64,000 bases of DNA from Leucobacter chromiiresistens (GTDB taxonomy: Bacteria > Actinomycetota > Actinomycetes > Actinomycetales > Microbacteriaceae): NCBI RefSeq assembly GCF_001477055.1, contig NZ_LDRK01000018.1:1-64000 (forward strand). Reading direction: 5' to 3'. Numbering within the stretch: position 1 is the stretch's first letter; each line of letters opens with the position of its first letter. Of the stretch, positions 17,467 through 21,993 are shown in pieces. Both the position numbers and the translations under genes were made by a program. The notes below the pieces were generated by a model. It had not been told where the DNA came from. It made no database searches and saw nothing but the letters and a program-made list of their open reading frames with translations.

Positions 17467-18276
17467 ATGAGCACACCACAGCAGACCCGTTCACTGGCCC
17501 GCGTCGCCGTCGACGCGCAGACCCTCGCCGATCTGTACGCGGCGCCCGAGGCCCTCCGCGTCGTCAACGTCTGGGATGCGGTGAGCGCCCGCGTCGTGGC
17601 GCAGCTGCCGGGCACCCGAGCGATCGCCACGGCGGGGCACAGCATCGCGGCCAGCCACGGGTACGCCGACGGGGAGCAGATTCCGCTCGACCTGATGATC
17701 GACGCCATCGCGCGCATCGCGTCGGCCACCGATCTCCCCGTGACCGCCGACCTCGACGGCGGGTTCGCGGACGCCGGGGAGACGGTGCGGCGCGCCATCG
17801 GCGCGGGAGCGTCGGGGGCGAACATCGAGGATCGCCTGCGCCCGCTCGACGAGTCGGTCGCGATCATGCGCGCGGCGGTCGAGGCGGGGGAGCGGGAGGG
17901 CGTGCGCTTCGCCCTGAACGCCCGCACCGACGCGCTGGTCCGGGGCGGCGACCGACCGCGCGACGCGTCGATCGCCGACGCCGTCGAGCGCGGGCGCGCC
18001 TACCTCGACGCGGGCGCGACCTGCGTCTTCGTGCCCGGCGTGCTCGACGCCGACGACACGCGCGCGCTCGTCGCGGGCATCGGCGAGCGCAAGATCAGCG
18101 TCATCGGGCTCCCCGGCGCCCTCACCGCGGCGGAGTACGAGTCGCTCGGCGTCGCACGCGTCTCGTACGGCCCGATGCCGCAGAACGTGGCGCTGACGGC
18201 CCTCAAGCGTCTCGGCGAATCGCTGCTCGCCGACGGTGTCATCCCCGAAGGCACCGAGGCGCTCAACAACTTCTGA
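17467..18276 (+). CDS. isocitrate lyase/PEP mutase superfamily protein
   Basis: 269 residues with the PEP mutase-like barrel: NVWDAVSARVV near the start, the Mg-binding DLDGGFADAGETV (about residue 96), GANIEDR (about 118) and FALNARTDAL. The KKCGH motif of true isocitrate lyase is missing, so a C-C bond lyase or phosphonomutase-like activity is likelier; the substrate cannot be told. Apparently leaderless. It converges with serB, the two stop codons being only 15 nt apart. Confidence 0.87.
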   Translation: MSTPQQTRSLARVAVDAQTLADLYAAPEALRVVNVWDAVSARVVAQLPGTRAIATAGHSIAASHGYADGEQIPLDLMIDAIARIASATDLPVTADLDGGFADAGETVRRAIGAGASGANIEDRLRPLDESVAIMRAAVEAGEREGVRFALNARTDALVRGGDRPRDASIADAVERGRAYLDAGATCVFVPGVLDADDTRALVAGIGERKISVIGLPGALTAAEYESLGVARVSYGPMPQNVALTALKRLGESLLADGVIPEGTEALNNF

Positions 18277-18291
18277 GCCCGGGCCGCAGGG

Positions 18292-18942
18292 TCAGGAGAG
18301 CCGGTCGAGCAGCGGGATCGCGAGCGCCAGATCGTCCGCGATGGACACATCTGCGCGCTCGCGCACGACCGGCTTTCCGTTGAACGCCACCCCGATCGCG
18401 GCGATCGCCATCATCTCCAGGTCGTTGGCCCCGTCGCCGATGGCGATCGTCGCCGACAGCGGGATCCCCGTCTCCGCCGCCCACTCCCGCAGCGCTGCGG
18501 CCTTCGCCACTGCGTCGACGATGGGGCCCACCGTGCGGCCCGACAGCGCGCCGTCGACCACTTCGAGCCGATTGGCCCGCCACAGGTCGATGCCGAGGTC
18601 GGCTGCGAGCGGATCCAGCACCTCGTGGAACCCGCCCGAGACGACGCCGACGCTGCCGCCGCGCGCGTGCACCGCGGCGACGAGTTCGCGGATGCCCCGC
18701 GTGGGCCTGACGCGCGCGTAGGCCTCGGCGAACACCGTCTCCGGAGTGCCCGCGAGCGTCGCGACGCGCTCGCGCAGGCTCTCGGCGAAGTCGAGCTCGC
18801 CCCGCATCGCGCGCTCGGTCACCGCCGCCACCTCGGCGCGGCTCCCCGCGGCGTCCGCGAGCAGCTCGATCACCTCGTCCTGAATCGTGGTGGAGTCGCA
18901 GTCGAGCACGACGAGGGGGCGTGTGATGCCGGGAGAAGTCAT
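18292..18942 (-). CDS. serB: phosphoserine phosphatase
   Basis: Removes phosphate from L-3-phosphoserine in serine synthesis. The 216-residue HAD-family protein has motif I DCDSTTI (about residue 14), motif II SGG in GVVSGGFHEVL, and motif IV GDGANDLEMM (about 175). It lacks the N-terminal ACT domain of many SerB proteins. ATG 18942 has no ribosome site; instead TATCCT lies exactly 7 nt upstream. It is divergent from the ABC ATPase gene with just 24 bp between the two start codons. Confidence 0.92.
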   Translation of the reverse strand: MTSPGITRPLVVLDCDSTTIQDEVIELLADAAGSRAEVAAVTERAMRGELDFAESLRERVATLAGTPETVFAEAYARVRPTRGIRELVAAVHARGGSVGVVSGGFHEVLDPLAADLGIDLWRANRLEVVDGALSGRTVGPIVDAVAKAAALREWAAETGIPLSATIAIGDGANDLEMMAIAAIGVAFNGKPVVRERADVSIADDLALAIPLLDRLS

Positions 18943-18949
18943 GATTCCC

Positions 18950-18955
18950 AGGATA
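18950..18955 (-). promoter_or_regulatory. candidate leaderless promoter (-10) of serB
   Basis: On the minus strand, TATCCT, 7 nt, ATG 18942. Its last two upstream bases overlap the plus-strand -10 box of the ABC gene (18954-18959). Confidence 0.6.
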
Positions 18956-18959
18956 GGCT
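18954..18959 (+). promoter_or_regulatory. candidate leaderless promoter (-10) of the ABC ATPase gene
   Basis: TAGGCT, 7 nt, ATG 18967, without a Shine-Dalgarno. Overlaps the divergent serB -10 box by two bases. Confidence 0.6.
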
Positions 18960-18966
18960 GAGGCGC

Positions 18967-19758
18967 ATGGTCACTGTGCTCCGCCTCACCGATGTCTCCT
19001 ACGTGCGCAACGGCAGGCCGATCCTCGACGGGATCGACTGGTCGGTCGACGATGCGGAGCGGTGGGTGATCCTCGGGCCGAACGGCGCCGGCAAGACGAC
19101 GCTCATGAAGCTCGCGACCGCGGGGGAGTACCCGACGCGGGGGAGCGTGGACGTGCTCGGCGAGCGCCTCGGTCGCGTCGACGTGTTCGAGCTGCGCAAC
19201 CGCATCGGCTTCGTCTCCTCGACCGCGGCGCGGCGCATTCCCGCGAGCGAGCTCGTGCGCGACGTGGTGCTGACCGCCGCGTACTCGGTCGAGGGGCGCT
19301 GGAACGAGGAGTACGACAGCATCGACGTGCGCCAGGCCGAGCGCATCCTCGCCGAATGGGATCTCGGCGCGTACGCGGATCGGGCGTTCGGCACGCTGAG
19401 CGATGGTGAGCGCAAGCGCGCGCTCATCGCGCGCGCCGTGATGACCGATCCCGAGCTGCTGCTGCTCGACGAGCCGAGCGCGAATCTCGACCTGGGCGCG
19501 CGCGAGCGCCTGCTGCAGATGCTCTCGGGCTTCGCCGCGTCCCCGTCCTCGCCGGCCATGGTGATGGTGACGCATCACGTCGAGGAGATCCCCCCGGGGT
19601 TCACGCATGTGCTGCTGATGCGGGAGGGCAGGATCGAGGCGGCGGGGCCGATCGCCGAGACCCTCACGGCGGCCGCTCTGGAGTCGACGTTCGGCATGCC
19701 CTTCGACCTGTCGGAGGCCGATGGGCGCTACGCGGCGGTGGCGCGCCCGACGGCCTGA
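18967..19758 (+). CDS. ABC transporter-type ATP-binding protein (YlmA/ModF-like)
   Basis: Single ATPase domain of 263 residues. Walker A GPNGAGKTT (about 37), signature LSDGERKRA, Walker B ELLLLDEPSANLD, and switch His in MVTHHVEEIP. No permease or binding protein is encoded nearby. The spacing and the LSDGE signature resemble the stand-alone YlmA-type ATPases, whose partners are unknown. The frame is open 5' of ATG 18967, but homology begins there and the -10 box is 7 nt upstream. Confidence 0.85.
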   Translation: MVTVLRLTDVSYVRNGRPILDGIDWSVDDAERWVILGPNGAGKTTLMKLATAGEYPTRGSVDVLGERLGRVDVFELRNRIGFVSSTAARRIPASELVRDVVLTAAYSVEGRWNEEYDSIDVRQAERILAEWDLGAYADRAFGTLSDGERKRALIARAVMTDPELLLLDEPSANLDLGARERLLQMLSGFAASPSSPAMVMVTHHVEEIPPGFTHVLLMREGRIEAAGPIAETLTAAALESTFGMPFDLSEADGRYAAVARPTA

Positions 19759-19801
19759 GCGAGCCCGTTCTCCCCGGGGTCTGGTAGAGTAGCGCTTTGG
19801 T

Positions 19802-19815
19802 GCGATTGCAATCGC
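19802..19815. promoter_or_regulatory. 14-bp perfect palindrome in the rpmE2 leader
   Basis: GCGATTGCAATCGC lies 12 nt after a TAGAGT -10-like box (19785-19790) and 64 nt before ATG 19880, so at or just after the likely transcription start. Position and symmetry suggest an operator. It does not look like the AT-rich Zur box reported upstream of some L31 type B genes. Confidence 0.5.
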
Positions 19816-19879
19816 CGATCCCAAGACCTCCGAGCGTGCTGCTACACGCTCACTCCCAGGCAAACACGAAGGAACTCTC

Positions 19880-20128
19880 ATGAAGACCGATACCCACCCC
19901 GAGTACAACGCAATCGTCTTCCGCGACCTCGCGTCGGGGGAGACGTTCCTCACCCGTTCGACGCTCACCAGCGAGAAGACGATCGAGCTCGACGGCGAGA
20001 CCTACCCGGTGATCGATGTCGAGATCTCGAGCGCCTCGCACCCGTTCTACACGGGCAAGCAGCGCATCATGGACTCGGCCGGCCGCGTCGAGAAGTTCAA
20101 CAAGCGCTTCAAGGGCTTCGGCGCCTGA
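19880..20128 (+). CDS. rpmE2: 50S ribosomal protein L31, type B (zinc-free form)
   Basis: 82 residues: [20 protein letters not shown] at the start, then SRT-type strand, [27 protein letters not shown] at the end. It has no cysteines, so it is the C-minus type B form that replaces zinc-binding L31 under zinc limitation in many bacteria. AAGGAA precedes ATG 19880. Transcribed as a single gene between a palindromic leader and a strong terminator. Confidence 0.97.
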
Positions 20129-20144
20129 TCCGAAGCAGCAGTAC

Positions 20145-20191
20145 CGGAAGAGGGCCGGGCGATCCGATGAGGATCGCCCGGCCCTCTTCCG
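20145..20191. terminator. bidirectional terminator between rpmE2 and the exonuclease gene
   Basis: Perfect 21-bp inverted repeat (20145-20165 with 20171-20191) with a 5-nt loop GATGA. The arms start CGGAAGAGGG, giving A-rich and U-rich ends on both strands. It lies between two convergent genes. Confidence 0.9.
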
Positions 20192-20204
20192 TGCGCGGCC
20201 AGGG

Positions 20205-20903
20205 TCAGCGGATCGGCCACCGTCCATCCGCGACGAACGACGGATTCCGGGCACGGCGCATGTACTCCTGGAAGCTCGCCGCCTGCGCCGCCGCCCACTC
20301 GACCTGCAGCCGGTGGATCTCGTCGAGCTCCTCGGGCACGACGTCCGCGTACTTCGCGGCGATGCGCTGGAGCACGCGACCGGCGGCGATCGCATCGTCG
20401 CCGGCGTCGTGCGCGTTGCCGATCTCGACGCCGTGATGCGCGGCCACCGCCTCGAGCGTGCGCTTGCCCTTGCGGTAGCGGTCGAGCTGCTTGTCGAGGA
20501 TCAGCGGATCGAGCACGGGGGAGATGTCAGCCGGCCAGGGCACCCCGTGCCGTGCCGCCTCGGCCGCCAGCAGCGTCAGGTCGAAGGGCGCGTTGTAGGC
20601 GACGACCGGGAAGCCGCGTTCGATCATCTCCATCAGCTGATCGACGATCTGCCGCACGCCGACCGACGCCGCGATGCCGCTCGTGCGGGCGATCTCGTTG
20701 CTGATGCCGTGCACCTGCACCGCGGCGGCGGGTATCTCGACCCCGGGGTCGAGCAGCCAGTCGTAGCGTTCGGACACCTCGCCGCCCGCGCCGAGCAGGG
20801 CGATCGATGCGCTCACGATGCGGGCGTGCGCGGTGTCGACTCCCGTCGTCTCGGTGTCGAATACGGCGAGGTCGGTGGCCCACAGCGGAAGCGTTTCGGT
20901 CAC
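20205..20903 (-). CDS. DEDDh 3'-5' exonuclease (DnaQ-like)
   Basis: 232 residues with the proofreading-exonuclease fold: ExoI VFDTETTGVD (about residue 14), ExoII AYNAPFDLTLL (about 100), and the DEDDh-type end with His and Asp in NAHDAGDDAIAAGRVL (about 168). No polymerase or GIY-YIG domain follows. It could act on DNA or on RNA ends; the substrate is not decided by the sequence. Start GTG 20903 has AAAGGAA upstream. Confidence 0.88.
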   Translation of the reverse strand: MTETLPLWATDLAVFDTETTGVDTAHARIVSASIALLGAGGEVSERYDWLLDPGVEIPAAAVQVHGISNEIARTSGIAASVGVRQIVDQLMEMIERGFPVVAYNAPFDLTLLAAEAARHGVPWPADISPVLDPLILDKQLDRYRKGKRTLEAVAAHHGVEIGNAHDAGDDAIAAGRVLQRIAAKYADVVPEELDEIHRLQVEWAAAQAASFQEYMRRARNPSFVADGRWPIR

Positions 20904-20990
20904 GGAGTTCCTTTCGTCCCTGTCGATCGTAGCGATTGACGGGAGGCGCCGGCGCCCCGGCGGCGGCAGGAGCCTGTCAGGGGCGCTCAG

Positions 20991-20996
20991 TAGAAT
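20991..20996 (+). promoter_or_regulatory. candidate leaderless promoter (-10) of the hydrolase operon
   Basis: TAGAAT, 7 nt, GTG 21004, no ribosome site between. Confidence 0.6.
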
Positions 20997-21003
20997 CGTC
21001 TCC

Positions 21004-21993
21004 GTGACTCACGCCCCCCGCGCCCTCCGCATCTCCGCACTCGGTGCAGACACCCGAGCCTGGGAGTACGGGGCGGAGGCGGGGGAGACCCTGGTCCTCG
21101 TCCACGGGTTCCGCGGCGATCACCACGGGCTCGAGGGCATCGCGATGCGGATCGCCGAGCTCAGGCCCGAGCTGCGGATCGTCGTGCCCGATCTGCCGGG
21201 GTTCGGCGAGAGCGCGGCGATCCTCGGGCGCACCCACGATCTCGATCTCTACGGCGAGTGGCTGCGCGCGTTCGCCTCGGCCGTCGCGCCCGACGGCTTC
21301 GACGTGCTCGGCCACTCGTTCGGATCGCTCGTGGTCGCCTGCGCCATCGCCGGCGGGTTGACGCCGAGACGACTCCTCCTCGTCAACCCGATCTCGTCCC
21401 CGGCGCTCTCCGGGCCGCAGGCTGCGCTGACCCAGCTCGCGATCGGCTACTATCGAGCCGCCGATCTGCTGCCCGAGCGCGCCGCGCGGGCGCTGCTCGG
21501 CAGCGCGGCGATCGTGCGCGTCATGAGCGAGGTCATGGCGAAGACCGAGGATCGCGCTCTCCGGGCCTGGATCCACGACCAGCACGCCCGGTACTTCAGC
21601 ACGTTCGCGCACCCGACGACCCTGCTGGAGGCGTTCCGGGCATCGGTGTCGCACACCGTCTCCGAGTTCTCCGACGCCTTCACGATGCCGACGCTCATCA
21701 TCGCGGGGGAGCGCGACGACATCACGCCGCTCGTCGAGCAGCTCGACCTGCATCGGCGCGTGCCGGGCTCCGAGCTCCGCATCGTGCCCGGCTCCGGCCA
21801 CCTCGTGCACTACGAGGCGGTGAACGACGCCGCCGCATACGCCGTTGATTTCATCGCGCCGCTCACGGTCGCGTCGCCGCGTGCGCGCATCGTCGGCGTC
21901 GCGGCCCCCGCGCCGGCGTCCGCATCCGCGGATGCGACGACGACCGCCTCCACGTCGATCTCGGCGTCGGCCTCGGGGGAGGAGCGCCCGTGA
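21004..21993 (+). CDS. alpha/beta-fold hydrolase
   Basis: 329 residues. LVHGFRGDHHGLEGIA carries the oxyanion-hole HG, DLPGFGES follows, and the nucleophile elbow is GHSFGSLVVA (Ser about residue 104); the acid is in AGERDD and the His in GSGHLVHYEA. The last 33 residues are a low-complexity Ala/Ser/Thr tail that looks disordered. Substrate unknown. Apparently leaderless from GTG 21004; an upstream open extension in this frame lies before the -10 box and is dismissed. The TGA overlaps the next GTG (GTGA). Confidence 0.85.
   Translation: MTHAPRALRISALGADTRAWEYGAEAGETLVLVHGFRGDHHGLEGIAMRIAELRPELRIVVPDLPGFGESAAILGRTHDLDLYGEWLRAFASAVAPDGFDVLGHSFGSLVVACAIAGGLTPRRLLLVNPISSPALSGPQAALTQLAIGYYRAADLLPERAARALLGSAAIVRVMSEVMAKTEDRALRAWIHDQHARYFSTFAHPTTLLEAFRASVSHTVSEFSDAFTMPTLIIAGERDDITPLVEQLDLHRRVPGSELRIVPGSGHLVHYEAVNDAAAYAVDFIAPLTVASPRARIVGVAAPAPASASADATTTASTSISASASGEERP
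21921..21936. repeat. 16-bp perfect palindrome inside the hydrolase gene
   Basis: CGCATCCGCGGATGCG within the region encoding the Ala/Ser-rich tail. May be chance in GC-rich DNA or a protein-binding site. Confidence 0.6.

Follow-up and report, generated by a model that had tools for sequence, protein, structure and literature searches.

The divergent junction between serB and an ABC-transporter-type ATPase gene raises the question of whether two promoters that share bases constitute a switch, which would express one gene or the other, or a compact bidirectional promoter that is simply tolerated. The initial annotation of this DNA had proposed the former. The window, by which we mean the whole stretch of 64,000 nucleotides that was analysed, comes from a genome of high GC content, to which Leucobacter provides the nearest named relatives, and our comparison extends from this window to the genus and to the family Microbacteriaceae.

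Anatomy of the junction and the leaderless signature

Direct reading of the letters places the serB start codon, seen as CAT at 18940-18942 with its first base at 18942 of the minus strand, and that of the ATPase gene, ATG at 18967-18969 of the plus strand, on either side of a 24-bp gap (18943-18966) that reads GATTCCCAGGATAGGCTGAGGCGC. The AGGATA at 18950-18955 is TATCCT on the minus strand, and this box overlaps the TAGGCT of the plus strand at 18954-18955, where the common TA is its own reverse complement; the distance from box to start codon is exactly 7 nt on either side. In all of this anatomy, namely the two start codons, the length of the gap, the boxes, their 2-base overlap and their spacing, the initial annotation was correct to the coordinate (Table 1).

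Table 1. Features of the serB-ATPase junction in window coordinates, with the basis of each assignment
Feature	Position	Strand	Basis
serB, phosphoserine phosphatase, 216 aa	18292..18942	-	translation; TIGR00338 218.3 bits vs cut-off 144.15
ABC-transporter-type ATPase, 263 aa	18967..19758	+	translation; PF00005 (ABC_tran) 94.1 bits
intergenic gap with both promoter cores, 24 bp	18943..18966		sequence; equal length in 11/53 genus genomes
TATCCT, putative -10 box of serB	18950..18955	-	7 nt from ATG; conserved in genus
TAGGCT, putative -10 box of ABC ATPase	18954..18959	+	7 nt from ATG; conserved in genus
TA dinucleotide common to both boxes	18954..18955		exactly 2 bases common in all 11 overlap genomes
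predicted start, leaderless serB transcript	18942	-	offset peak at 6-7 nt
predicted start, leaderless ABC-ATPase transcript	18967	+	offset peak at 6-7 nt

The ATPase matched 182 NCBIfam families, and in each of the 25 listed its score stayed below the cut-off, so that no substrate is assigned. About 120 bp (19759-19879) follow its gene and precede a small gene at 19880-20128 (82 aa), presumably that of ribosomal protein bL31 type B. Rfam and ARAGORN gave no match in the window, and a sigma70-type promoter scan of 17500-21500, which requires a -35 hexamer, gave 0 matches (0.2 in shuffles). An arrangement of the form start, 6-7 nt, ANNNTANNNT, 6-7 nt, start has a single match in the window, whereas the mean over 200 dinucleotide shuffles is 0.05 and 10 of them contain at least one; such a single-window count is weak by itself, and it is conservation in relatives that decides whether the boxes are real.

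TANNNT before the start, some 10 bp upstream, is described as the leaderless signature of Actinobacteria, in which 19% of genes on average are leaderless, the share reaching 26% of the M. tuberculosis genes with a primary start (PMC3898074, PMC3160421). We called genes with our own crude codon model, trained on the window together with G009, and counted TANNNT at each offset from candidate starts in three genome samples. In the window plus G009 (384 kb from two very close genomes) there were 49 hits at 6 nt and 14 at 7 nt, with 0-5 at each of the other offsets between 0 and 25; the corresponding numbers were 34 and 23 in G022 (0-4 elsewhere) and 14 and 8 in G014 (0-3 elsewhere), the latter being a genome in which the yield of the codon model was lower (200 genes in 400 kb, as against 317 in G022). 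Across the three samples 13-20% of called genes carry TANNNT at 6-7 nt, and with 63 of 317 called genes (67 if offsets 6-8 are counted) this is a common leaderless signature of the source genome.

Both boxes of the junction belong to this peak in nearly the whole genus. The counts refer to 53 genomes, that is, the 54 of the genus minus G046, which had no ABC match at threshold; the named loci L009-L023 and L025 stand outside these counts, and several of them are the same genomes, judging by identical junctions. TANNNT at 6-7 nt precedes the ATPase gene in 53 of 53 genomes and serB in 51 of 53, the remaining two having CAGACT, and each box holds a constant distance to its own start codon while the spacing between the boxes varies. 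Outside the genus the ATPase box recurs in all 64 named non-Leucobacter loci, being those among the best 80 of 230 loci found; the distance is 6-7 nt in 62 of these and 9 nt in the other 2, and two of the 64 boxes were counted after start-codon correction. Of 20 further loci of the family, 18 have the box, at 5-8 nt, and two lack it. The serB box is present in only 9 of 20 family loci. In one genome (G016, locus L101) the serB frame stops after 172 codons without the GDGxND motif, its promoter box being intact; the gene may be frameshifted or a pseudogene, or else misassembled, and the genome was kept in the counts and in the tree.

Shine-Dalgarno-like 4-mers precede the ATPase gene in 7 and serB in 8 of the 53 genomes, against about 8 expected by arithmetic from base composition, so that by this count no conserved Shine-Dalgarno sequence is found for either gene. 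The initial annotation had placed -35 regions inside the opposite genes; where the boxes are separated by 34 bp or more, as they are in 30 genus genomes, no -35 element stands out by information content. Together, the conservation of the boxes, the offset peak, the lack of any Shine-Dalgarno excess and the lack of a -35 element indicate that within the genus both boxes are very probably in use as promoters and both mRNAs very probably leaderless, and the proposal that each transcript starts at the first base of its ORF is the best reading of these comparisons.

A less likely view, to which we give a small share of probability, is that only one of the boxes is active, the other gene having its promoter within the opposite ORF or being expressed through a longer mRNA led by a Shine-Dalgarno sequence. 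The GAGG that stands before the ATPase ATG in the window, the CAGACT in place of TANNNT at serB in two genus genomes and the patchy occurrence of the serB box outside the genus all lend it something; against it, both boxes keep their start distance in the genus while the spacing between them changes, the Shine-Dalgarno-like 4-mers are as sparse as stated, and the genomes with separate boxes show no conservation resembling a -35 element. Translation of the ATPase gene led by GAGG was set aside, since relatives have such 4-mers no more often than their base composition would lead one to expect.

Spacing of the boxes and origin of the gene pair

In 11 of the 53 genomes the distance between the two boxes is -2 (the common TA, with the 24-bp gap); another 7 have +4, and the remaining 35 range from +13 to +200. 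None of the 53 has a spacing tighter than the shared TA. The initial annotation had made conservation of the 24-bp gap in close relatives a check of its proposal: the gap is kept in these 11 genomes, three of which stand on G000's own tree branch, and is replaced by separate boxes between the same two genes in the other 42. The overlap is thus not a conserved trait of the gene pair. All 11 overlap genomes have the 7/7 spacing, though each of the three genome samples has more boxes at 6 nt than at 7, a point that counts against the explanation we prefer below. No overlap was seen outside the genus, either in six Microbacterium loci with adjacent serB, whose boxes lie 14-77 bp apart, or in 18 family loci with adjacent serB, whose projected gaps exceed 50 bp.

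On a locus tree made from the two proteins of the 53 genomes and 3 outgroups, the overlap stands in five places and takes 5 changes, at least 4 of which are forced by starred branches. The AU test rejects a single clade for all 11 overlap genomes (p 1.8e-5) and also a clade for the nine that have TATCCT (p 2.4e-4); grouping G053 with the G000 clade is not rejected (p 0.21), and grouping G042, G031 and G040 with G047 is (p 2e-8). G006 and G022, with AGTCTAGGCT, a serB box that reads TAGACT and a SerB that is shorter at its start, are unlike the nine AGGATAGG(C/G)T genomes, so that the shared-TA state was reached by at least two routes. For G006 and G022, a deletion between the TAG repeats that stand at the gap ends of their relatives would produce the overlap in one step. 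The nine TATCCT genomes have the same box sequence and a similar SerB N-terminus and yet do not form one clade, for which one old origin followed by losses, or local gene conversion, are possible accounts.

How serB and the ATPase gene came to be neighbours can be approached through a sample of 150 Microbacteriaceae genomes, in which 144 ABC and 141 serB places were compared; G000 was left out, and for G062, G164 and G065, whose serB hits were fragments, these hits were omitted and the genomes appear as lacking serB. At the 144 ABC places serB is divergent on the same contig in 137, on the same strand in 1, on another contig in 2 and absent in 4. The divergent pairs are separated by 2.0-3.3 kb in 113 cases, by less than 300 bp in 21 (two of them belonging to this genus), by 1.3 kb in 2 and by 6.6 kb in 1, distances that run between alignment ends and so are approximate. 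In most sampled Microbacteriaceae about 2.5 kb thus lies between the two genes, and where we looked the order is serB <- glgC <- -> glgA -> ABC: at L155 the interval contains glgC, towards serB, and glgA, towards the ATPase gene, and at L156 it matches both. A glgA match stands upstream of the ATPase gene in 59 of 65 loci, and the six without it are the six with adjacent serB.

In the genus the glgC-glgA pair is absent from the locus. None of the 54 genus genomes has glgA above cut-off (35 have weaker, sub-cut-off matches), and glgC is above cut-off in three, G010, G025 and G052, on contigs other than the one with serB and the ATPase gene. The same three glgC-positive genomes have no glgA_Coryne match over cut-off. 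It was probably the loss of glgC-glgA that made serB and the ATPase gene neighbours; within the family, to which the comparison applies, loss at this locus is a simpler reading than insertion of the pair elsewhere. The presence of the serB box in only 9 of 20 loci outside the genus, set beside 18 of 20 for the ATPase box, makes a serB promoter older than the loss no more than a possibility, which counts against the explanation we prefer below. The ATPase box is found also where glgA lies upstream and is independent of the neighbour. In 19 of the 59 loci with glgA (L028, L036, L038 and 16 more, all non-Leucobacter), glgA ends in a TAG with which the TANNNT box begins, and this stop codon doubles as a promoter element; 19 is the count by glgA match, which disagrees with the longest open frame as to a stop within the box at L027, L037 and L062.

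A tolerated overlap, selection for coupling, or a switch

The explanation that we favour, with good though not complete confidence and from comparison of sequences, is that the junction forms a single bidirectional promoter for two leaderless mRNAs, with a TA common to its -10 boxes, that it arose by compaction after the loss of glgC-glgA, and that the overlap is tolerated and does not act as a switch. The main sigma factor would recognise TAGGCT in the direction of the ATPase gene and TATCCT in that of serB, no -35 element being visible in relatives, and each RNA would start at its own start codon or at most 1 base from it, the two predicted starts lying 25 bp apart from codon to codon, or 23 bp if optimal starts are calculated from the boxes. 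This geometry would be that of the 23-bp class of bidirectional promoters. Loss of glgC-glgA would have left two genes facing apart, and the gap would then have shrunk by deletions until, in some lineages, the boxes came to share the TA. Polymerases would then be unable to occupy both directions together, probably at a small cost at ordinary activity, and the overlap would be a tolerated by-product.

The state is not a common one, which speaks against this explanation to some degree. Among 122 divergent pairs called in 1.184 Mb (the window and stretches of G009, G022 and G014), leaderless boxes precede both genes in 16, and only the serB/ABC pair shares a TA, which is found in none of the other 121. 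Five other pairs with leaderless boxes on both sides have them 9-21 bp apart (L208:12292-12326, L150:8562-8601, L144:7215-7256, L191:2897-2941 and L194:1564-1611). The serB/ABC junction is the tight end of a continuum.

Recurrence on the tree could also reflect selection for the overlap, which likewise counts against a merely tolerated state, and it is conceivable, if improbable, that the promoters collapse repeatedly onto one TA under selection that couples SerB and the ATPase through polymerase competition. If so, the overlap trades promoter strength for coupling. By geometry the shared TA forces an A at -4 of each box. ATPase promoters have T at -4 in 27 of the 42 non-overlapping genus genomes, in 5 of the 64 non-Leucobacter loci and in 0 of the 11 overlaps, so that T at this position appears to be a trait of the genus; they have CG at -3,-2 in 22 of 42, 50 of 64 and 0 of 11, respectively, and this CG, which is compatible with the overlap geometry, is still absent from all 11 overlaps. 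At serB, the separate boxes have T at -4 in 25 of 42 genomes and CG in 0 of 42. Since A is forced at -4 and the overlaps have neither T nor CG, weaker promoters are predicted in the overlap form.

Less probable again, in our estimation, is that the overlap is a selected device which makes expression of the phosphatase and of the ATPase mutually exclusive per DNA copy. That the boxes share bases, and do so in several lineages, agrees with such a device; 42 of the 53 genus genomes keep the same genes with separate boxes, and SerB and this ATPase are not known to us to act against each other, both of which points count against it. Given the size of the polymerase footprint, any gap of less than about 110 bp probably also hinders double occupancy, so that exclusion is not special to the overlap. 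Within the genus the two promoters are well supported by the comparisons above, and the interpretation as a switch is not.

Work on bidirectional promoters bears on the same point. Two polymerases are sterically blocked from binding both ways at such sites according to PMC12825309, and by analogy the initial annotation was probably right that two polymerases cannot bind together, a momentary exclusion at the shared TA being likely. The same source reports that in five tested E. coli bidirectional promoters the weakening of one direction barely affects the other at basal activity, and that competition emerges once one direction is strongly activated, which can repress the other side (PMC12825309); the latter would favour a device, and the former speaks against one. 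The exclusion of binding would be momentary and not lasting, and the claim that expression of serB and the ATPase gene is mutually exclusive is unsupported. Pure chance, in which TANNNT is so loose a motif that its overlap is coincidental, could appeal to the shuffles of the window that carry such a motif, and is rejected as very improbable on the genus-wide conservation of the boxes and the offset peak at 6-7 nt.

The locus offers a natural series: across 53 genomes the two conserved boxes of a single gene pair stand at spacings from shared bases to 200 bp, and a comparison among relatives would allow polymerase competition and noise at bidirectional promoters to be tested. A way in which a bidirectional promoter can form is suggested as well, in that two leaderless genes come to stand head to head once the divergent gene pair between them is lost.

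Comparison with known divergent promoters

Nothing was found in the literature searched on Leucobacter together with transcription start sites, and no doubly leaderless promoter with a shared box was found there either, a weak negative given that subscription papers were scarcely covered. The junction resembles the leaderless genes of other Actinobacteria in having TANNNT 6-7 nt before the start and no Shine-Dalgarno excess at this locus, and it differs from ordinary examples in that two such promoters overlap. Closely juxtaposed divergent promoters are termed common in PMC3898074, where prpD/Rv1129c of M. tuberculosis is likewise divergent with both mRNAs leaderless; it differs in that both genes rise together in starvation (PMC3898074).

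The closest published case that we encountered is lysG/lysE of M. tuberculosis (PMC5648196), which is divergent, has mapped starts with overlapping -10 and -35 motifs, and yields a leaderless transcript from a second lysE promoter. It differs in its 108-bp gap, in its LysR-type regulator with the inverted repeat of that regulator, and in that only one transcript, which is inducible, is termed leaderless (PMC5648196).

In geometry the nearest counterpart is the 23-bp class of Warman et al. (PMC12825309, PMC10268837). Bidirectional promoters with a shared -10 element have divergent starts 7-25 bp apart (PMC10268837), with 23, 18 and 10 bp as common start spacings (PMC12825309); the 25 bp from one start codon of the junction to the other would fall within that range. 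The junction is like the 23-bp class in that -10 boxes on opposite strands share bases (18954-18955) and in that the predicted optimal starts would lie 23 bp apart. It differs in that both mRNAs would be leaderless, with the promoter filling the whole gap, in that no -35 element is seen in relatives, in its high-GC TANNNT boxes, and in that its starts are predicted, not mapped. The bidirectional type of promoter is thus known already, and the serB/ABC junction looks like a compact case of it.
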